Positions 15,546 through 26,324 of a DNA stretch of 64,000 bases are shown here, in pieces. Origin of the DNA: an uncultured Kordiimonas sp. (GTDB taxonomy: Bacteria > Pseudomonadota > Alphaproteobacteria > Sphingomonadales > Kordiimonadaceae); the NCBI GenBank assembly GCA_947492375.1, contig CANLMI010000002.1:869529-933528 (forward strand). Direction: 5' to 3'. The notes under the pieces were generated by a model that saw nothing but the letters and a program-made list of their open reading frames with translations, did no database searches and was not told where the DNA came from. The position numbers and the translations under genes are program-made. How positions within the stretch are numbered: position 1 is the first letter of the stretch; every line of letters begins with the position of its first letter.

Positions 15546-15779
15546 ATGAAGAACAGCAAAGTTAAAGAAATTAAACACTCATATACCCCATCAGACCCCA
15601 ATGCATCAGGCATAATGGCCAATTCGCCTACTCGTCACGAGATACGAATACATAAAAGTCTGATATGTGCAGGGCTACTTTTGCTGGCATGCGTCTACTC
15701 ACATAGCCTTGTAGCCCAGCAAGCTGCCAAACAACGTATATCCGTAAGCCAAGCCGTAAACTTTCCCAATGATATATAA
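15546..15779 (+). CDS. Small secreted or anchored protein in the envelope cluster
   Basis: 77 aa, no family recognised. A hydrophilic stretch of about 35 residues precedes a hydrophobic segment ('LICAGLLLLACVYSHSLVAQQ'), which could be a membrane anchor or a late signal peptide cleaved after 'SLVA'. The roughly 20 residues beyond it ('ISVSQAVNFPNDI') would lie in the periplasm. I use the ATG at 15546 with an AAAAGGG ribosome site, 10 bases after the previous stop; an upstream in-frame start would overlap the PEGA/FGE gene. It directly precedes the MotA/TolQ/ExbB gene by 30 bases, so a role as a small accessory subunit of that channel is plausible but unproven. Confidence 0.6.
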   Translation: MKNSKVKEIKHSYTPSDPNASGIMANSPTRHEIRIHKSLICAGLLLLACVYSHSLVAQQAAKQRISVSQAVNFPNDI

Positions 15780-15809: not shown

Positions 15810-16571
15810 ATGAAGAATTCACTTATATCCTTTGCTGTCTTTTTTGGGATCGTTATCGTCGTACATCTCGTTTATATCGGCGTAATCATACCGCAGGCGG
15901 AACAATCAACATTAACAGCTATTCAAAATGGGCAGTCAGTTTCACGCAGCCTTTGGGTTATTTTACAAGACGGAGAACAAGAAGTTTGTTTCATACTGAT
16001 GTTTTACGGCATGTATTTACTTGGGCTTGGCATGTATCGTCTCTGGTCAGACAATTATCTATTTGATGTGGATTTATTGGAAGAAGCAGACGCGGAAAAT
16101 CACAGCCTCGGTGAAATCTTGAAAGACCTTAGCGGATTAGACGAAAAAATTAAATCAACCCCACTTGTCCAAACATTATCTGCCAGCTTGAGGCGTTATT
16201 TGATCACTAACAATGTGCAAAATGCCTCAGATGCCGTAACAACGAGTGTCGATGCTCTCGCTGTACGTATTGAAGCAGGTAATTCTATGATCCGGTATCT
16301 TATTTGGGCAATTCCATCGATTGGATTCATTGGCACAGTACGCGGTATTGGCGTTGCGCTTGCAAAAGCTGACGAAGCTCTCGCTGGAGACATTGTTGGA
16401 ATGACCGGAGCCCTTGGTGTTGCCTTCAACTCAACTTTAGTCGCATTATTTATCAGTATAATCCTGATGTTCTTGTTACATGCACTTCAGAAAATGCAGG
16501 ATGAATTATTAGTAAAAACACAGACATATTGCGAAAAAACGCTGCTGGAACGTATTAGCCAAACTGCCTGA
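15810..16571 (+). CDS. MotA/TolQ/ExbB-family proton channel protein
   Basis: 253-aa inner-membrane protein of the family that conducts protons to drive Mot, Tol and Exb machines. Four membrane helices are readable at about 8-30, 56-79, 160-185 and 205-228. The signature part is the C-terminal pair: 'AIPSIGFIGTVRGIGVAL' followed by 'GALGVAFNSTLVALFISI', with the Pro, Gly and Thr/Ser positions typical of the family. The cytoplasmic stretch between helices 2 and 3 is about 80 residues, shorter than in MotA and like TolQ. An AGAGGA ribosome site precedes the ATG. There is no ordinary tolR/exbD neighbour; instead two VWA proteins with stator-like helices follow, which I infer to be its partners. 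Confidence 0.88.
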   Translation: MKNSLISFAVFFGIVIVVHLVYIGVIIPQAEQSTLTAIQNGQSVSRSLWVILQDGEQEVCFILMFYGMYLLGLGMYRLWSDNYLFDVDLLEEADAENHSLGEILKDLSGLDEKIKSTPLVQTLSASLRRYLITNNVQNASDAVTTSVDALAVRIEAGNSMIRYLIWAIPSIGFIGTVRGIGVALAKADEALAGDIVGMTGALGVAFNSTLVALFISIILMFLLHALQKMQDELLVKTQTYCEKTLLERISQTA

Positions 16572-16610: not shown

Positions 16611-17654
16611 GTGGCCGCAAAACGTAAAACTGAGAGCTCAACACTCGCTTTTCTGGATATTATTTCCTGTGGCCTCGGGGCAGTTATTTTGATCTTCCTC
16701 ATCATCAAGCATAATGTTGATATCGGATCAGAGCAAACTGATGCTTTAAAAGCCGAGTTGGCTGCACTTGAACAAGAGGCAGAGCGACTAGCGAGCGAAG
16801 CTGAAAAATTAAAAAGGCAAAACGCTGATATTGAACAAGCGAGCCAGTCTTTGGAAGACCAACTTATCAATTCAGATGGCAAGCTTACAGCTCTTAAGCA
16901 ACAAAATATATCCAAAGAAAAACGAAATAAAGTTGCTGAAGGTGAACTAGAAAAAATCGAAGTTGAAATACCCGTAGACCGTGTTGAATTAACTGGCGCA
17001 GGCCAGGCAAATTATATTGTTGGCATGAAGGTAGAAGGAGACCGCATAGCCATACTGATTGATCATAGCACATCCATGACATATCCAACACTTGAGCAAG
17101 CAGTACTTGCTAAATTTGACAGCCAGAGCCAACGGCAAACAGCACCAAAATGGCAACGCACAGTCAGGGTCGCCAAATGGCTATTAGCGCGCATACCAGA
17201 ACAGTCACAGTATACTGTCATTGGATTTAATAATCAGGCCAGTTTCTTGTCACCCCAAAACACCTGGTTGTCCGCATCAAACACCGCAGACATTGCAGCA
17301 ACTATTGGAACTATATCCACCCTCTCACCATCAAATGGCACCAATTTACAGGCTGGTATCGAAGAGGCTCTAAAACTCTCACCTAAACCAACGAGTATCT
17401 ATATTGTAACGGACGGGCTTCCGACAAACGGTGACGTATCATGCGCAAAGAAATCCTCTGTTACGCCGCAGTGCCGTAGAGCCCTGATGACAGATATTTC
17501 CAAAACCCTCGCTTCGACCTTCCCACGAGGCAATGTTCCCATAAATACAATTCTATTACCCATGACCGGAGACCCGGATGCACAAGCATTATTTTGGGGC
17601 TGGGCGAATGCATCAAAAGGCACCGTTCTTTCACCAACGAAGAGTTGGCCATGA
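16611..17654 (+). CDS. VWA-domain membrane protein with stator-like helix (1)
   Basis: 347 aa, read from the GTG at 16611 with an AGGAG ribosome site 9 bases upstream. A single membrane helix (14-32) begins 'FLDIISCGLGAVIL', with Asp16 where TolR, ExbD and MotB carry their essential Asp. A coiled coil rich in Glu, Ala, Lys and Gln follows (about 40-120). The C-terminal von Willebrand A domain (about 140-345) has a complete MIDAS: 'DHSTS', the Thr of 'NGTNLQAG', and the Asp of 'VTDGLPT'. It would project the metal-binding domain into the periplasm. It overlaps the next gene by ATGA, and the two share the helix motif, so they arose by duplication. Role inferred: proton-driven partner of the TolQ-like channel. 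Confidence 0.82.
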   Translation: MAAKRKTESSTLAFLDIISCGLGAVILIFLIIKHNVDIGSEQTDALKAELAALEQEAERLASEAEKLKRQNADIEQASQSLEDQLINSDGKLTALKQQNISKEKRNKVAEGELEKIEVEIPVDRVELTGAGQANYIVGMKVEGDRIAILIDHSTSMTYPTLEQAVLAKFDSQSQRQTAPKWQRTVRVAKWLLARIPEQSQYTVIGFNNQASFLSPQNTWLSASNTADIAATIGTISTLSPSNGTNLQAGIEEALKLSPKPTSIYIVTDGLPTNGDVSCAKKSSVTPQCRRALMTDISKTLASTFPRGNVPINTILLPMTGDPDAQALFWGWANASKGTVLSPTKSWP

Positions 17655-18613
17655 GACGTAGAGACCGAGAAACTGATATTTTCAGCCTTTCCTTTCTGGA
17701 TATTGTTTCCTGCGCCTTTGGTGCTGTTGTTCTACTTCTTATCATATCGCGCCCTGAAGTAGCACCTGAAGGAAGCGGCAGTGAAAGCAAAGACCTCTTA
17801 AGGCAACTCTTTAGATCAGAAGCAGAAAATGCACAGCTTGCCGACCTTGGCGAACAAGAGAAAGTTAACCTAGAAGGCTTAAAAAATAAAAATCGCGACT
17901 TGGCGGAACAACTGCAAGCCCTCAAAGAACGTACCCACCTAGAAGAATCTAGAGCAGCAGAACTCGCAAAAAGCCGCGCCCAAATTGAAGCGCGCAAAGT
18001 GGAACTGGAAAAATTAGCGCAAGTAACAGACGCCACACCGGTTGCTGAACCAACAGAGGAAGTTGGGGGCATTCCGATTGACAGCGATTATGTTGTCTTT
18101 GTGATCGATACATCTGGCAGCATGCGCGACAAATGGCAATTTGTGAAAAGTGTCATCGACAGAGTTTTGACAATGCACCCACAAGTCAAAGGGTTTCAAA
18201 TCGTCAATGACAATGGGTTTTACCTAAAAAACCGCGGCAGATGGATCACAGATACACCCAGCCAAAGACAACTTGCTCTTCGTCAAACAAATAGATGGTC
18301 CCCAAACTCTAACAGTAATCCTTATGAAGGTATAGCAGAAGCATTGAAAACATACGGCAACCGCAACGGTAAATTAGCGATTTACGTTTTTGGCGATGAT
18401 TTTGCGAGCCGCAACTTCGATAATACCGTCAATGCAATTGCTACACTAAACACATCTAGCTCTGGGAAAAAGAAAGCAAGAATTCATGGAATTGGCTTTA
18501 CCGGAAACCCAACCAAGTACCGAGGTGTTGATAATGGTGCTTACACCTTTTCAATCTTAATGAACGCTGTAGCCCGGGAAAACAATGGCGCATATCTGAG
18601 CTTATCTCGCTGA
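17651..18613 (+). CDS. VWA-domain membrane protein with stator-like helix (2)
   Basis: 320 aa. The start is the ATG at 17651, which overlaps the previous stop as ATGA; a longer in-frame reading from 17594 lies inside the upstream gene and is not needed. The layout matches its neighbour: basic N-terminus, membrane helix (about 14-32) with 'FLDIVSCAFGAVVLL' and Asp17, a coiled coil (about 45-125), then a VWA domain (about 145-320) with a perfect 'DTSGSM' MIDAS start and 'VFGDDFA'. The middle MIDAS Thr is not obvious ('SNSNPYEG'), so metal binding may differ from that of protein 1. Last gene of the cluster; 165 bases of intergenic DNA follow before the ECF sigma gene. Confidence 0.82.
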   Translation: MRRRDRETDIFSLSFLDIVSCAFGAVVLLLIISRPEVAPEGSGSESKDLLRQLFRSEAENAQLADLGEQEKVNLEGLKNKNRDLAEQLQALKERTHLEESRAAELAKSRAQIEARKVELEKLAQVTDATPVAEPTEEVGGIPIDSDYVVFVIDTSGSMRDKWQFVKSVIDRVLTMHPQVKGFQIVNDNGFYLKNRGRWITDTPSQRQLALRQTNRWSPNSNSNPYEGIAEALKTYGNRNGKLAIYVFGDDFASRNFDNTVNAIATLNTSSSGKKKARIHGIGFTGNPTKYRGVDNGAYTFSILMNAVARENNGAYLSLSR

Positions 18614-18778: not shown

Positions 18779-19306
18779 TTGAGTATTTTGGGCAAAAAAG
18801 AATTAATTGAAGCATATCTTAAACTGAGGCCAGTTCTGATCAGATTCTTGGTGGCACGTTTCAGAGATGACGCAATTGCAGAAGACATTGTCCAGGAAAT
18901 ATATTTCAAACTAGACAGACTTTCCGGAGAGTTAAATATTGAAAATATTGATGCTTATTTATTCAAAATAGCAAATAATTTAGCATTAGACTTCAGAAAA
19001 TCGGTCCTTAGACGACATAAAAGAGAGCTTACCTGGAACGAATTAAGTACTCATACAATAAAAGGGGAACCAGTTCATGACCAACCGAATGCTCTCGAGT
19101 CAATTAATGGACAACAAAAATTTGCAAAATTAGAGCAGCTGATAGAAGAACTACCACCTCAGTGTAAGAGAGTATTCATTGCTCACAAAATACAGGGGGC
19201 AAGCCATAAAGAAATTGCGGAAAAACTAAATATCTCTCGCAGCGCTATTGAAAAACATATGGCTAGGGCCCTGAAATACTTAGCTACAAATATTGATCGT
19301 GACTAA
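18779..19306 (+). CDS. ECF-family RNA polymerase sigma factor, FecI-like
   Basis: 175 aa. Region sigma-2 (about 10-70) includes 'DAIAEDIVQEIYFKL' and 'DAYLFKIANNLALDF'; region sigma-4 (about 115-168) includes 'ELPPQCKRVFIAHKIQGASHKEIAEKLNISRSAIEKHM'-type residues that bind the -35 element. The TTG start at 18779 is supported by a GGGGAAG ribosome site. A FecR-type regulator and a TonB receptor with a signalling domain follow on the same strand, the standard arrangement for cell-surface signalling: ligand at the receptor releases the sigma factor through FecR, which then raises transcription of the receptor. Confidence 0.92.
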   Translation: MSILGKKELIEAYLKLRPVLIRFLVARFRDDAIAEDIVQEIYFKLDRLSGELNIENIDAYLFKIANNLALDFRKSVLRRHKRELTWNELSTHTIKGEPVHDQPNALESINGQQKFAKLEQLIEELPPQCKRVFIAHKIQGASHKEIAEKLNISRSAIEKHMARALKYLATNIDRD

Positions 19307-19409
19307 AAATGCAACAAAACAATCACAACATGAGGTATTGTCAATTCTGCGGCGTCTATTGTTATAGTAGTATATCGTTTGCCCCTAGTCGCTTTATCAG
19401 GAACCATAG

Positions 19410-20468
19410 ATGAGCCCGCAAAATAACAATAAAATAGAGCCGAAACTGCTCGAGGAAGCGGCTGATTGGCATGCGCGGGTAAACAGCGACCAAGCCATAA
19501 CCGAGGACTGGTTATCGTTAACAGCTTGGCTGGAAAAGACCCCAGATCACGCAAAAGCATATGATGCGGTTGAGAATATCGCTTTTGATGCAGAGTTATT
19601 GCCTGCTTCCAAGTTTAGCGAAAATATTTTTGATGATATTTCAACAAATACAAATATCAATGAACCTGCACCAACGGTACATCCTGGCTTTTTTGCAAAA
19701 ACACAGCATTTAGCATTTAATAAAACCGCTGGCTTTTTCATTTTATTAGGCTTTCTGATAGCCGGTATGATGTATGCTCCTAATTTAACAGGCCCTGAAA
19801 CATCAGAATTTATGCCGCAGTATTATGTTGCTGGCAACAAATCCAATCAAGTAACCTTAGCTGATGGTTCCATAGTTAATCTGAATGTGAATAGTGAAAT
19901 AACAGCGCTATTAACTGAAAAAGAACGACGGATTACCATGACAAAAGGTGAAGCAATTTTTGATGTCAGTAAAGACCCCGCCAGACCGTTCATTATAACA
20001 GTTGCCGATACTGATATCAGAGTTGTTGGTACTGTTTTTAACGTTTTAAAGGAGCAAACTGGCCTATCGGTGACTGTCTCTGAGGGAATTGTAGAAGTCA
20101 TGCCATCCTCACGAGAGACAAATAATGTTTCCAACCGTCAATTCCCTAATAAAATTTTAAATGCTGGACAACAATTTCAGTTAAAAAATGAAGACAACAG
20201 ACCTATTGTGCGTAATATTGAAGCTGAGAATATATTAGCATGGAGAAAAGGGCAGTTAATTTATGAGGAAGCAGATTTACAGCAAGTTATGAGCGATTTA
20301 GGTCGATACCTTAACAAACCAGTTGATGTTGCTGCATCACTTAGCAGCTTATCATTCTCTGGCGTACTATTAACGGATGACATCGAAGCAAGTTTTCTGG
20401 TTCTTGAGAGCAGCTTACCTATCAAAGTTTCATCTTCAAACACGCTGATTGCCGTTAACCCTCAATAA
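19410..20468 (+). CDS. FecR-family sigma regulator
   Basis: 352-aa inner-membrane anti-sigma/sigma regulator. The N-terminal cytoplasmic DUF4880-type domain (about 10-60, 'LLEEAADWHARVNS' and 'DHAKAYDAVENI') would bind the FecI-like sigma factor. One membrane helix lies at 106-122. The periplasmic FecR domain (about 140-235) carries 'ADGSIVNLNVNSEI', 'GEAIFDVSKDPARPF' and 'VRVVGTVFNV'-like residues, and a C-terminal domain (about 270-345) would contact the receptor's signalling domain. It sits 103 bases after the sigma gene and 15 bases before the TonB receptor. An AGGAA ribosome site precedes the ATG. Confidence 0.9.
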   Translation: MSPQNNNKIEPKLLEEAADWHARVNSDQAITEDWLSLTAWLEKTPDHAKAYDAVENIAFDAELLPASKFSENIFDDISTNTNINEPAPTVHPGFFAKTQHLAFNKTAGFFILLGFLIAGMMYAPNLTGPETSEFMPQYYVAGNKSNQVTLADGSIVNLNVNSEITALLTEKERRITMTKGEAIFDVSKDPARPFIITVADTDIRVVGTVFNVLKEQTGLSVTVSEGIVEVMPSSRETNNVSNRQFPNKILNAGQQFQLKNEDNRPIVRNIEAENILAWRKGQLIYEEADLQQVMSDLGRYLNKPVDVAASLSSLSFSGVLLTDDIEASFLVLESSLPIKVSSSNTLIAVNPQ

Positions 20469-20483
20469 ATTTAAACTCTAGGT

Positions 20484-22991
20484 ATGGCCTGTCGAATATT
20501 AGTAAATATCGTTGTTTCCATGATTCTACTTAGTGCTCCTGATGAAGCCTGGGCGGAAGTCGCTGGGGAAATCAACACCGACAAACATGACTTTAATATC
20601 GACGACCAGCCCCTAGCCAAAGCTTTACAGACGTTCGCCCAACAAGCCAATATAGCCATCAGCACGCCTCATTTAACCTACAAAGATGGAAAAAGTAAAT
20701 TATTACAAGGCCGGTTTACCATCAAAACCGGGCTCGAACGCCTTCTGCAAAACTCACCATTTACCTATAAAATACTGTCTTCTCGTGCGATCAAAATATA
20801 TAAGCCAAAGCAATCAACACCGCATCAGCCCAAACAGTTACTGGCCAGTCAAATTGACTATGATGTTGAAGTAGATTCAATCGAAGAAATTCTCGTTACC
20901 TCTGCCAGAAGAACTGAAACTATTTTTTCTGTGCCTACATCAGTAAGTATCTTTAGCCCGAAACCAAATGAACAATTTGGTAGCCTAGACACACTTGAGC
21001 TTACGCGCAAAGTATCCGGTTCGCATAATAGTTTACAAAACCCGGGGCAAAATAAACTTATTTTACGCGGGCTTTCTGACGGGGCTTTCAATGGCCGTGC
21101 ACAATCTCTGGTAAGTACATACATCGATAATTCACGTATCATATATAATACACCTGACCCAGGTTTGGGCCTGACAGATATTGATCAGGTAGAAGTTCTT
21201 AGAGGACCACAAGGTACATTATATGGGTCCGGCGCTCTAAGTGGCCTGTATCGAATCACAACACGAAAGCCTGATTTTGAAGGTTTTGATATCCAATTGG
21301 CGTCATCACTAAGCACAACAAACGGTGGTGATCCATCATATAACCTTTCAGGCATTATAAATCTGCCATTTGTGAAAGATAAATTAGCATTAAGAGCCGT
21401 TGTACTTTACCGCGACAAAGGGGGGTATATCGACAATACTCAACTTAATCTTGAAGATATCAATTCCAGTAAAACCACCGCAACTCGTATCGCAGTGTCT
21501 TATCGATTTAATAACAACCTGAGCCTCACTCTTGGCCTTAATTATCAAGACTTTAGGTCTGACGATAATAACTATTTCATCGAAGGCCTCTCACCTTTCA
21601 GTGTAGACAATAATTTTCAAGAACCCTTTGAAGATGAATTGGTTCAACCCAACCTAACAATAGACGCAAACCTTGGCTGGGCTACGCTAACCTCAAGTAC
21701 AACATGGTTAAACCGCGATATTAACAGTGTTCTAGATGCTTCAACTACAATCATCCGGCGTTTCTCTGATGACAATGCTACAGGCACTTTTGAGAGCATA
21801 CAAAATGTAGAAACCATATCAAACGAAACACATCTAACATCACCATTAGGCGAACGATTAGAATGGGTACTCGGAACATTCTTCTCCCATAGGAGAGAAA
21901 GCAACGACTCTGCATTATTCGCACAAGCTGATATTTTATCGTTGATCGATTTTACTCAAGTACCCGATATACCGCTCGGTGCAATTTTTTTTGAAGGTCG
22001 TTTCGAAACGCTAACCGAACTAGCAATTTTTGGCGAAGCAACATATTACCTGTCCGATAAAGTGTCAGTAACTTCCGGACTACGCTGGTTTAACTATAAC
22101 GGTGATGCTTTCTCTCGCGTACGATCACTAGGCAGTAATGATACAATAGGGCTTACAGGATCACAGTTAGATAATGATTTCATCCCAAAAATATCACTCT
22201 CTTACTATGCTTCGGACAACTTAACCCTTTATAGTCAATTTTCTGTCGGATGGCGCCTCGGCGGTACAAACCTTTTAGGGTCTTCAATCAATTTCGCTAA
22301 TGTCGGGTTCATCGACGAAAACAACATTCTCGATAATTTCGCCTCTGACTCACTTTTAAACTATGAAATTGGTGCGAAATATATTTCACCAGATAATACC
22401 CTTCATGCCAGCTTTGCCAGCTTCTTCTCCTCATGGCAAGATATTCAATCTTATCAATTTTCGCCAGATGGTATACCTGATATCGATAATGTAGGAGATG
22501 CCATAATCTATGGATTTGACGCTGAAATCTCTTACACTGTCAAGGACACCCTAAAAATTGATACGAATATTGCGTGGAATAGGTCAGAAATCACAAATAC
22601 AACAAATCGTTTTGGCGCTCAAGCTGGTGATCGGCTGCCTGGCGCTCCTGCCTTTACCGCAGGCATCTCCCTTCAAAAAGACTTTACTCTTTCTAACCAG
22701 CCTTTTAGCCTCAGCACGTCATATAATTATGTTGGCCCAACACGCCTTCTTTTTGAGACAGAAGCAACGCCTCGTGCCGATCAATATCATTTAACTAACC
22801 TTGAAGTAAGTACAAGCTTCCAATCAATTAATGTCACACTTTTTGCTAACAACCTGTTCAATTCACAGGCTAATACATTTCCGTTCTCAAATCCTTTTAA
22901 TTTAGAAGTTGCCGACAGTGGCTTTAAAAGCAGACAGATCACCCCTCTGACACCGCGTACCATTGGTGTTGCCATTAACTGGCAGTATTAA
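20484..22991 (+). CDS. TonB-dependent outer-membrane receptor with STN signalling domain
   Basis: 835 aa. A signal peptide (about 1-23) is followed by a secretin/TonB short N-terminal (STN) signalling domain (about 40-100: 'FNIDDQPLAKALQTFAQQANIAIST', 'LQGRFTIKTGLERLLQNS'), a TonB-box-like stretch and plug ('EEILVTSARR', 'VEVLRGPQGTLYGSGALSG'), then a long beta-barrel ending in an aromatic residue ('GVAINWQY'). It imports a ligand across the outer membrane and reports it to FecR. Missing haem or siderophore hallmarks leave the ligand unknown: it could be a siderophore, vitamin or glycan. The ribosome site is weak, so it may depend on coupling to fecR 15 bases upstream. Confidence 0.92.
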   Translation: MACRILVNIVVSMILLSAPDEAWAEVAGEINTDKHDFNIDDQPLAKALQTFAQQANIAISTPHLTYKDGKSKLLQGRFTIKTGLERLLQNSPFTYKILSSRAIKIYKPKQSTPHQPKQLLASQIDYDVEVDSIEEILVTSARRTETIFSVPTSVSIFSPKPNEQFGSLDTLELTRKVSGSHNSLQNPGQNKLILRGLSDGAFNGRAQSLVSTYIDNSRIIYNTPDPGLGLTDIDQVEVLRGPQGTLYGSGALSGLYRITTRKPDFEGFDIQLASSLSTTNGGDPSYNLSGIINLPFVKDKLALRAVVLYRDKGGYIDNTQLNLEDINSSKTTATRIAVSYRFNNNLSLTLGLNYQDFRSDDNNYFIEGLSPFSVDNNFQEPFEDELVQPNLTIDANLGWATLTSSTTWLNRDINSVLDASTTIIRRFSDDNATGTFESIQNVETISNETHLTSPLGERLEWVLGTFFSHRRESNDSALFAQADILSLIDFTQVPDIPLGAIFFEGRFETLTELAIFGEATYYLSDKVSVTSGLRWFNYNGDAFSRVRSLGSNDTIGLTGSQLDNDFIPKISLSYYASDNLTLYSQFSVGWRLGGTNLLGSSINFANVGFIDENNILDNFASDSLLNYEIGAKYISPDNTLHASFASFFSSWQDIQSYQFSPDGIPDIDNVGDAIIYGFDAEISYTVKDTLKIDTNIAWNRSEITNTTNRFGAQAGDRLPGAPAFTAGISLQKDFTLSNQPFSLSTSYNYVGPTRLLFETEATPRADQYHLTNLEVSTSFQSINVTLFANNLFNSQANTFPFSNPFNLEVADSGFKSRQITPLTPRTIGVAINWQY

Positions 22992-23800: not shown

Positions 23801-23863
23801 CTATTTTCAATAGATCGCTTCATATCCAGATAAAGAAAACACCCCTGCGTAAGATTAATCCGT

Positions 23864-24451
23864 CTAGTAGTATCCTATGGGGCCCGTCTGCATAAACCTT
23901 CCAAGAGCAGGATGGTAATAAATAGTAAAGCCAGGTTGCAGCAGCCAGCCGGCGACCCGTAAAGCGGAATGGTTGACTATCTTCCTCACCAGAAATACCA
24001 AACTCGTTATAGGTAAACGCCGATGTCCGCTGGCCCGAACTATGCGAAGACATCGCAACCGTCGTACCCAGATAATCAGTGTGATAATAACTGATCTTAG
24101 GATTTGTCGTCAGGGATGTCGAGCCATCAGGGCGCTTAACAACATAATTGATAAAGGCAACACGTTCATCAACGCCTGCTCCGTTGATATACCGACGGAA
24201 AGGCTGAGAATAATGGTTACCATCCTGAATAGGTTCAAAATCATAATAGTTAAACGTGGTTTGTTTTTTATCACCTTCCCCTGCGTCAACAAGCTGCTTG
24301 AACCGACGACCAAGCGCATCATAAAAATAATACACCGTCTTCTGTTTATCCTCAGCCTTAACAAGCTGGTTGAACATATCATACTTATAGGTCCAACCAT
24401 CATAACTCGTCAGGTTACCGTTTTTATCATAGGTAGCGTCTTGATCTGGAA
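23864..24451 (-). pseudogene. Decayed RHS/YD-repeat protein fragment
   Basis: The minus strand encodes the last part of an RHS/YD-repeat core, starting directly at the insertion-sequence edge ('DATYDKNGNLTSYDGWTYKYDMFNQL') and passing through 'YYFYDALGRRFKQLVD', 'ISYYHTDYLGTTVAMSS' and 'FRFTGRRL'. At about 23917-23925 the frame breaks: the expected 'YYYRARYYHPALGRF' is shortened by about 10-11 bases, and the continuation 'IYYHPALGRFMQTGPIGYY' is in another frame, ending at a stop at 23864. The 'TDPIGYY' hallmark is mutated to TGPIGYY. The 5' part of the gene and any C-terminal toxin are missing. RHS proteins are polymorphic toxins or surface filaments; this one cannot be functional. Confidence 0.85.
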
Positions 24452-24469
24452 GGTGCTGTCAGTTTAAAG
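24452..24469 (+). repeat. IS6-family terminal inverted repeat, left
   Basis: GGTGCTGTCAGTTTAAAG; aligns with the reverse complement of 25241-25258 at 13 of 18 positions, including GG, TGTCAG and TTAAA. Confidence 0.8.
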
Positions 24470-24505
24470 CTAACCAGTCTCAACTTACACGCATAGGGCG
24501 ATAGT

Positions 24506-25204
24506 CTAGTTTATAATTTGCCGCCACTCAAGAAATGCCTGAGTGCGAAAACTAAGATAATCATGTCGTGTAATGAGATGTCGTTCTCCATTAAAATGAT
24601 TTTGAATTTGGGACTGGATTGAAGTGAATTTCTGAAGTGATTTGTCGCTTCGGAATTTGTTCATCGCGCTTTCTCGTCGTCGGAAAACCAAGTGAGAGTT
24701 CTCTGCTCGATTATTCATCCAGCGACCAACTGATTGAATATGCTTACACCCTAATTCTTTCATCGCTGCACCGTATGACTTTAATCTGTCAGTGACGATA
24801 GAGTAGGGACGTCCAAAACGTTTCATCAGCCTTTTCAATACTTTACGAGCCGCATTTTTATCACGTTTCTCGGTCACAAGCACATCAAGAACTTCACCTT
24901 CATGGTCAACAGCACGCCATAAATACCGAGTTTGTCCATTGATTTTGACAAAGACTTCGTCGATATGCCAACGCCAATTTGAGTGATTTTGCGCTTTTAA
25001 ATATCGTCTTTTTCTTAAATTATTTGCGATAATTGGTCCAAATCTATTCCACCAAAATCGCACCGTTTCATGGCAAATGTTGATACCTCGTTCGGCCAGA
25101 ATTTCCTCTACGTTTCGGAGTGAGAGCGAATATCTCACATACAGCAAAACGGTTGATTGAATAATTTCTGGTGAAGATTTAAAATAGCGAAATGAAATGT
25201 TCAT
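24506..25204 (-). CDS. IS6-family transposase
   Basis: DDE transposase of 232 aa. The N-terminal helix-turn-helix region ('RYSLSLRNVEEILAERGI', 'CHETVRFWWNRFGP') is typical of the IS6 family, and the catalytic triad reads Asp82 ('WHIDEVFVKI'), Asp139 ('IVTDRLKSY') and Glu168 ('NNRAENSH'). The gap between the second Asp and the Glu is about 28 residues by my count, a little short of the 34 I recall for IS26. The frame is intact, so the element may still move. It catalyses replicative cointegrate formation. Confidence 0.93.
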   Translation of the reverse strand: MNISFRYFKSSPEIIQSTVLLYVRYSLSLRNVEEILAERGINICHETVRFWWNRFGPIIANNLRKRRYLKAQNHSNWRWHIDEVFVKINGQTRYLWRAVDHEGEVLDVLVTEKRDKNAARKVLKRLMKRFGRPYSIVTDRLKSYGAAMKELGCKHIQSVGRWMNNRAENSHLVFRRRESAMNKFRSDKSLQKFTSIQSQIQNHFNGERHLITRHDYLSFRTQAFLEWRQIIN

Positions 25205-25240
25205 TCCGCTATGCTAGATGGCAAACTCTGTCAGAGCAAA

Positions 25241-25258
25241 TTTTAATCTGACAATTCC
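25241..25258 (-). repeat. IS6-family terminal inverted repeat, right
   Basis: TTTTAATCTGACAATTCC, the inverted partner of 24452-24469. The thiolase reading frame runs through it into the element. Confidence 0.8.
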
Positions 25259-26183
25259 ATTTTAAGGTTGCTGGTGCAGGGCCAATGCCCATTAAACGCG
25301 GCGGCACGCCCGCAACTGCTGTGCCTACAATTCGCGCTATCGGATTAAGATTATGTATTTTTGCTGCTTGATCAGATGCAATGAGCAATGCACAAGCGCC
25401 ATCATTAATACCTGATGCATTACCCGCAGTAACAGTACCACCATCCCTAAAAGGTGCTGGCAAGGATAACATTTTCTTCAAACTGGAACCGGGCCGGGGA
25501 TGCTCATCTTGATTAAAGATACGCGTTTCTTTTCGGTTGATTGATACTTCAACCGGCATAATCTCACCATCAAAAAACCCTCGCGTCTGCGCTGCTGCTG
25601 CACGGTCTTGGCTTCTTAGGGCAAACATGTCCTGGTCTTCCCGTGCAATTCCAAACTCTTCCGCAACATTTTCCGCCGTTTCAGGCATGCTTTCAGTACC
25701 ATACTGTGCCTGCAACAGCTGATTAACAAACCGCCATCCCATTGTTGTATCATACATCTTGGGATCGCGGCCAAAGGCGCTTGCTGCCTTACCAAGCACA
25801 AACGGCGCCCGAGACATGCTTTCAGCGCCACCTACAACAAACAAATTCCCTTCGCCTGCTTTAATCGCTCTGGCAGCGATCGATACAGCATCCATCCCTG
25901 ATCCGCACAGCCTGTTGATCGTGCACCCTGTAACAGCAGGGTCCATACCAGCGAGAAGCGCTGCCATTCGCGCAACGTTTCTGTTATCCTCTCCAGACTG
26001 ATTGGCAGCCCCAAAAATCACATCATCAACAACAGCCCAATCAACATCAGGGTTACGTTTCATCAGTTCACGAATTGGAAGCGCGGCCAAATCGTCAGCG
26101 CGAATAGTTGCCAAACTACCCCCATATCGGCCAATCGGCGTTCTGATACCATCACAGATAAATGCATTTGACGCTGTGCTCAT
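25259..26183 (-). pseudogene. 3-oxoadipyl-CoA thiolase, 3' end removed by the IS
   Basis: The 5' three quarters of a PcaF/PaaJ-type thiolase (about 308 residues), recognisable from 'FICDGIRTPIGRYGG', 'TINRLCGSGMDAV' with the nucleophilic Cys, 'GGAESMSRAPFV' and 'YDTTMGWRFVN'. It would cleave beta-ketoadipyl-CoA to succinyl-CoA and acetyl-CoA in aromatic or phenylacetate breakdown. After 'GIGPAPATLK' the frame enters the insertion sequence, adds about 16 foreign residues and stops at 25209. The remaining roughly 90 residues, with the catalytic His and second Cys, are missing, so the product should be inactive. The start at 26183 has an AGGAGG site upstream. It is divergent from the FNR-like gene. 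Confidence 0.9.
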
Positions 26184-26324
26184 TTCCTCGCCTCCTAAAA
26201 CTTTGAACATAATAGAAGGATGCATTCCTTTTTGTCACATGGATATTTTCACCAATATTTGATAGAATGAATATGCTCACAAATTAAAATATAGATTTTG
26301 TGGTTTGAAACGAAAGCTTTTGGC

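Follow-up and report, generated by a model that had tools for sequence, protein, structure and literature searches.

A conserved bacterial operon encodes a putative TolQ-type motor with two different VWA-domain axle proteins

The window, a stretch of 64,000 nucleotides from an uncultured Kordiimonas sp. that was analysed as a whole, carries an operon whose genes all lie on the forward strand. The first gene, P1 (9549..10550, +), encodes a secreted low-complexity protein and is followed by P2 (10625..11845, +), a periplasmic protein with a domain of the FlgT/PelC/CsgG/TolB-N type, P3 (11864..13393, +), with an N-terminal membrane helix, TPR-like repeats and a C-terminal PEGA-like segment, and P4 (13415..15535, +), with an N-terminal membrane helix, four PEGA repeats and a C-terminal FGE/SUMF1-fold domain. 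A small ORF (15546..15779, +; possible later start at 15615), referred to here as the tail peptide, lies between P4 and the gene for a TolQ/ExbB/MotA-like wheel subunit (15810..16571, +). The genes for two VWA-domain proteins follow, VWA1 (16611..17654, +; GTG start, 347 amino acids) and VWA2 (17651..18613, +; ATG start, 320 amino acids). Minus-strand ORFs beneath the operon genes were regarded as mechanical, and promoter and terminator scans of the region gave results near chance level.

VWA1 has an R/K-rich cytoplasmic N-terminus, one membrane helix, a coiled coil and, from about 17046 (+), a VWA domain with an intact metal-ion-dependent adhesion site (MIDAS). Its paralogue and presumed partner VWA2 is built alike, with a membrane helix, a long coiled coil (residues 43–125 of the AF2 model) and a VWA domain from about 18089 (+) with the MIDAS DxSxS/Ser/Asp. 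The ORF list opens VWA2 at TTG 17594; the start common to relatives is ATG 17651. An earlier note made from the sequence alone, whose span of 16611–17755 comprises VWA1 and the membrane helix of VWA2, had described a shared FLDI[IV]SC[GA][LF]GAV in both proteins with an Asp at residue 16 or 17, and this description is exact in the translated ORFs. VWA1 begins MAAKRKTESSTLAFLDIISCGLGAVILIFLIIKHN, with the Asp as residue 16 (codon 16656–16658, +), and VWA2, read from ATG 17651, begins MRRRDRETDIFSLSFLDIVSCAFGAVVLLLIISRPE, with the Asp as residue 17 (codon 17699–17701, +). In each protein the motif follows a basic N-terminus and lies within the single hydrophobic helix, and the Asp is the sole acidic residue of the hydrophobic segment. 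When the N-terminal profiles of VWA1 and VWA2 were aligned with one another, a P value of about 1e-25 was obtained. The MIDAS domain attributed to both proteins was likewise recovered, in VWA1 by Pfam VWA_2 (33.3 bits, above the cut-off of 27) and in VWA2, which scored 19 bits against the same model and thus fell below the cut-off, by the VWA fold that Foldseek found for its AF2 model (pLDDT 84). In translated-protein numbering, the MIDAS residues are D151/S153/S155/T244/D268 in VWA1 and D153/S155/S157/S222/D249 in VWA2, and both sets are kept in at least 94% of relatives; as judged from an alignment read by eye, VWA2 has Ser where Thr is expected.

For comparison across species, one genome per species was scanned, which located VWA1 relatives at 547 or more sites; 80 of these were fetched. 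Among the pooled, non-redundant relatives the helix Asp was kept in every distinct sequence, 121/121 for VWA1 and 121/121 for VWA2, at median pairwise identities of 0.35 and 0.38, respectively; invariant columns numbered 19 of 348 in VWA1 and 16 of 320 in VWA2. The first sampling pattern, L[AS]F[LI]D.., contained the Asp itself, and resampling was hence carried out with a helix-blind profile of the VWA domain only. The Asp was present in 43/43 VWA1 and 41/41 VWA2 sequences of this helix-blind sample (the helix part of one additional, stop-disrupted VWA1 copy was left out of the count), which ruled out an artefact of the Asp-containing search pattern. The earlier note had proposed aligning the helix across homologues and had held that free variation of the Asp would refute a stator; in the alignment the Asp never varies.

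The protein encoded upstream of VWA1 matched PF01618 (45.6 bits, cut-off 22.9). Its Thr176 (16335–16337, +) and Asn207-Ser208-Thr209 (Thr209 at 16434–16436, +) are kept in 84/84 relatives; when the protein is aligned with TolQ/ExbB/MotA-type proteins encoded in these genomes, Thr176 falls on the Thr of GTV, and Thr209 of NST falls on the Thr of ATA, the second pore Thr. No ExbD/TolR gene was found in the operon in the six genomes checked, though all six carry such genes elsewhere, and neither VWA1 nor VWA2 matched Pfam PF02472 (ExbD/TolR) at E 0.1. By profile comparison, the VWA1 helix aligned Asp on Asp with ExbD/TolR in a weak match (P = 0.003, probability 11%), and comparison of the VWA2 helix with ExbD was not significant (P = 0.024). 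The match being weak, we make no claim of descent from TolR. Searching PDB sequences with the TolQ-like profile and with P5 gave nothing useful. A defence-system (ZorAB-like) reading was discarded, as the TolQ-like protein matched ZorA weakly and partially (PADLOC, 14.5 bits) and no ZorB-like or effector gene was seen.

The reading of the two VWA proteins as parts of a stator, put forward in the earlier note, gains support because the Asp is invariant and the adjoining TolQ-like protein keeps both pore threonines. We estimate a probability of about 0.75, based on sequence comparison, that the TolQ-like protein, VWA1 and VWA2 work together as an ion-driven motor of the 5:2 type. The axle proteins each hold one invariant Asp and run from a short, positively charged N-terminus through a single helix and a coiled coil to the VWA domain, and the wheel holds two invariant pore Thr. 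In the proposed mechanism, the complex would be an inner-membrane motor of the MotAB/ExbBD/TolQR kind with a VWA1/VWA2 heterodimer as its axle, five TolQ-like subunits encircling a single helix from each of VWA1 and VWA2. Relative rotation would be driven by protonation of both Asp residues within the Thr-lined pore, and the periplasmic coiled coil would bear two MIDAS heads, which may grip partners from the same operon in place of peptidoglycan or a TonB-type receptor.

The same 5:2 architecture might instead be no motor at all, its Asp and Thr residues serving assembly or regulated proton leakage and its VWA pair acting as a sensor or scaffold that reports the state of the envelope. VWA/MIDAS proteins are frequently scaffolds or chaperone adaptors, in keeping with such a role. 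However, the ion-flow residues of MotAB, ExbBD and TolQR, namely the Asp and both pore Thr, are invariant here at about 35% overall identity, and we consider a non-motor function unlikely.

If the complex is a motor, its axle could be built in two ways. One VWA1 and one VWA2 were present in 85/85 of the loci read first, together with a TolQ-like gene in 84/85 (in the remaining locus the contig end comes first), and in the tree VWA1 and VWA2 formed two separate clades with 100/100 support each. A VWA1/VWA2 heterodimer is the likely form, because the two are separate clades and always occur as one of each. Alternatively, VWA1 or VWA2 could form a homodimeric axle, giving two alternative motors that share a common wheel like exchangeable stators. 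The Asp occurs in VWA1 and VWA2 alike, and self-pairing of either protein is conceivable in principle, but the two genes are always adjacent, with the VWA1 stop and VWA2 start overlapping as ATGA in the window, and the residue at Asp+4 is also matched between the partners. This residue is Cys in both proteins in 111 pairs and Ser in both in 7 pairs, with 0 mixed, a distribution that agrees with two helices packed together and that probably reflects a single evolutionary event. A further argument for two different chains comes from AglRQS, the gliding motor of Myxococcus, in which the TolQ-like AglR works with two different TolR-like partners, AglQ and AglS. Taken with this precedent, a homodimeric axle appears improbable, to much the same degree as a non-motor complex. 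Ser at Asp+4 in both VWA1 and VWA2 was seen in a Mariprofundaceae-type clade (L071, L107, L111 and L113–L118), and the Cys could thus not be regarded as invariant.

The genes upstream of the motor genes are retained along with them. P2 was found in 70/85, P3 in 72/85 and P4 in 79/85 loci, preceding the motor genes in an order that is constant in almost all loci of sufficient length; the order P2-P3-P4-TolQ-VWA1-VWA2 was seen in Alpha-, Beta-, Gamma- and Zetaproteobacteria and in Desulfobacteraceae. P1 homologues lie directly upstream of P2 in three near relatives, and a P1-like family with a signal peptide, low complexity and a C-terminal DP..RE..EY.KYK, joined to P1 by eye, occurs in 60 more of 70 loci. 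P2 matched no Pfam family. The N-terminal domain of its AF2 model (pLDDT 83) gave Z scores of 12.8 with FlgT, 12.6 with PelC, 11.7 with a chain of the curli complex and 11.4 with TolB; on this model P2 has the CsgG/PelC/FlgT/TolB-N fold, a common fold that does not imply function. The window copy of P2 has a signal peptide but lacks the lipobox Cys; because at least 49/60 relatives have a lipobox of the outer-membrane type, the family is probably one of outer-membrane lipoproteins. P3 relatives matched PEGA with E = 0.012 and TPR above the cut-off. P4 matched PF08308 (112 bits) and PF03781 (118.5 bits). Formylglycine-generating enzymes have a catalytic Cys pair. Within the P4 family, a single Cys column is common (53/73) and no Cys pair is conserved, which speaks against such an enzyme, and the FGE-fold domain of P4 is therefore probably a binding domain.

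The presence of an FGE-fold gene, a wheel gene and axle genes in the same sequence as gldK-gldL-gldM raises the alternative of a secretion or gliding motor like that of the type IX secretion system (T9SS; GldKLMN). The PDB matches of P4 include PorK/GldK, and GldK is its best NCBIfam match. With the curated GldK model TIGR03525, whose cut-off is 350 bits, P4 nevertheless scores 72.7 bits and is thus not a GldK by that model; P4 is anchored in the inner membrane and bears PEGA repeats, the proteins that its FGE domain matches more closely in the PDB are not GldK, and neither GldM nor GldN is matched in the operon; we regard a T9SS-like system as highly unlikely. The least tenable alternative, that ISC|G in the membrane segment is a lipobox, VWA1 and VWA2 are lipoproteins and the Asp is incidental, draws on the lipobox-like appearance of [IV][IM]SC taken alone and was rejected, as the stretch after the Cys comprises some 12–15 residues, most of them hydrophobic, against only about 5 before it, a whole clade has Ser in its place with the Asp unchanged, and the Asp would fall within the hydrophobic core of the signal.

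The motor itself is not new, having been predicted in 2025. Section 8 and Fig. 4c,d of that work (Mol Biol Evol 2025, msaf138; PMC12204202) describe a ‘TPH-vWA’ family of vWA genes tethered by a transmembrane helix, which occur as heterologous pairs in tight co-occurrence with tolQ and without tolR/exbD. A transpore Asp is conserved in that family, AF3 models place the Asp pair inside a Thr ring, and the query came from Idiomarina; the section names no further operon gene and reports no phenotype for the family (PMC12204202). The family studied here includes Idiomarinaceae members (L042, L056 and L057) and has the same properties: a heterologous pair in 85/85 loci, a TolQ-like gene in 84/85, no ExbD nearby in six genomes and an invariant Asp. 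New here are P1–P4, the small tail peptide, the lineage-wide Asp and Thr counts and the separate VWA1 and VWA2 clades. In the literature searched, no experiment on this family was found.

Compared with characterized systems, the predicted motor resembles TolQR/ExbBD in its PF01618 wheel with two pore Thr and in an axle with one N-terminal helix and an Asp a few residues in. It differs in having a long coiled coil topped by a VWA/MIDAS head where TolR and ExbD have a small periplasmic domain, in its two different axle genes and in that no TolA/TonB gene was recognised in the operon. With MotAB/PomAB it shares the plan of an ion motor whose axle combines a membrane Asp with a separate periplasmic anchoring domain, which is a VWA domain here and an OmpA-type peptidoglycan-binding domain there; no flagellar genes were recognised in the operon. 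AglRQS is similar in its single wheel with two different partners, but AglQ and AglS are without a VWA domain.

The tail peptide ends in ISVSQAVNFPNDI-COOH in the window. A homologous ORF was found in 115/115 readable loci (110 plus five more, some of which may duplicate loci of the first set; relatives were taken from L017–L096, L176–L211 and L218–L222), ending in [F/L]-P-x-D/N-I-COOH. It lies beside TolQ in 108/110 loci and beside P4 in the other two, L196 and L198, which are rearranged such that the peptide gene remains behind P4 and the TolQ-like gene follows VWA2. In most copies, what looks like a signal peptide or membrane anchor comes first, with some 15 to 80 residues after it. Ile is the final residue in 108/108 copies and Pro stands at position −4 in 107/108; both counts are partly conditioned, as Ile was a set element of the search pattern and Pro a set element of one of its two forms. 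Position −2 (Asp 100, Asn 7, Gly 1) and position −5 (Phe 98 or Leu 8; n = 108 for both) were free in the Pro-fixed form as far as Asp and Phe are concerned. Synonymous codons vary freely (Ile: ATT 54, ATC 31, ATA 23; all four Pro codons), and the pattern was absent from random segments of the same loci (0/2030) and from the reverse strands of those segments. No Pfam family matched the peptide, and a literature search for the motif turned up no use of it in this sense; the peptide has apparently gone undescribed until now.

Asn at −2 is confined to one clade, Idiomarinaceae and Rheinheimera, and clade-specific changes were counted there in each protein: VWA2 had 8, the highest VWA2 count among the clades scanned, VWA1 0, the wheel 1, P4 3 and P2 7. 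The VWA2 changes include DTSGS to DNSGS, SNSSP to GGGSAP, D187 to Ala and a change at E226, and most fall in loops of the MIDAS face by sequence position, a placement read from strand and loop positions in the AF2 model as opposed to measured distances. Because VWA2, and not VWA1, is remodelled around its MIDAS in this clade, the tail peptide is suggested as a VWA2 ligand. The comparison covers one evolutionary event picked after the data had been seen, and P2 changed almost as much; binding of the tail by VWA2 is therefore a lead only, and we think it more doubtful than probable. When tail peptides were searched for Asp-to-Asn changes of independent origin, only further members of the same clade came up.

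Within the proposed motor mechanism, candidate partners of the MIDAS heads would be the secreted tail peptide, with the VWA2 MIDAS as its probable site, and the PEGA/FGE protein P4; at the outer membrane, the P2 lipoprotein is a candidate, its FlgT/PelC/CsgG fold relatives being known to form rings. The whole assembly would be a putative trans-envelope force generator. The most complete version of this scheme, a new trans-envelope machine in which the VWA2 MIDAS joins a heterodimeric VWA motor to the peptide tail, acting as a built-in, integrin-ligand-like MIDAS ligand, and the motor is thereby linked to an outer-membrane P2 ring, is put forward tentatively, and we do not favour it at present.

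Directly downstream of the motor operon, the window encodes an ECF sigma factor, a FecR-like regulator and a TonB-dependent receptor (18779–22991). The sigma factor and FecR were near the motor in 1/85 loci and the receptor in 2/85, the window included, and these genes are therefore placed outside the operon. Further on, positions 23820–26225 hold an RHS-type fragment, a transposase-like ORF (24506–25204, −) and an acetyl-CoA acetyltransferase-like ORF (25209–26225, −) whose end is seemingly cut beside the transposase-like ORF; this segment is probably a mobile-element insertion. One branch of Gammaproteobacteria has an additional gene between TolQ and VWA1 (L053:8674–10005, L073:8701–9993, L085:8692–9981 and similar), whose product of about 430 amino acids has no Pfam match and, by eye, an N-terminus like that of an actin-like ATPase; in this branch, two small genes and an M48 peptidase follow VWA2.

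A VWA1 scan of the class of the window gave matches in 5/289 genomes, its own counted. In the class of a Glaciecola relative (Gammaproteobacteria), the VWA-domain-only profile gave strong matches (E below 1e-20) in 31/369 genomes, and five more genomes had weak, partial VWA matches only. The TolQ-like gene was on none of the plasmids of the collection. Genes for the putative motor occur in roughly 8% of the Gammaproteobacteria species sampled, and further classes also have them. The conserved operon, with a small peptide of near-fixed C-terminus, narrows the possible partners to a few and suggests one specific peptide–MIDAS contact. If the motor reading is true, the ion-driven rotary motors would be extended by one whose axle carries a metal-dependent adhesion module as its working end.
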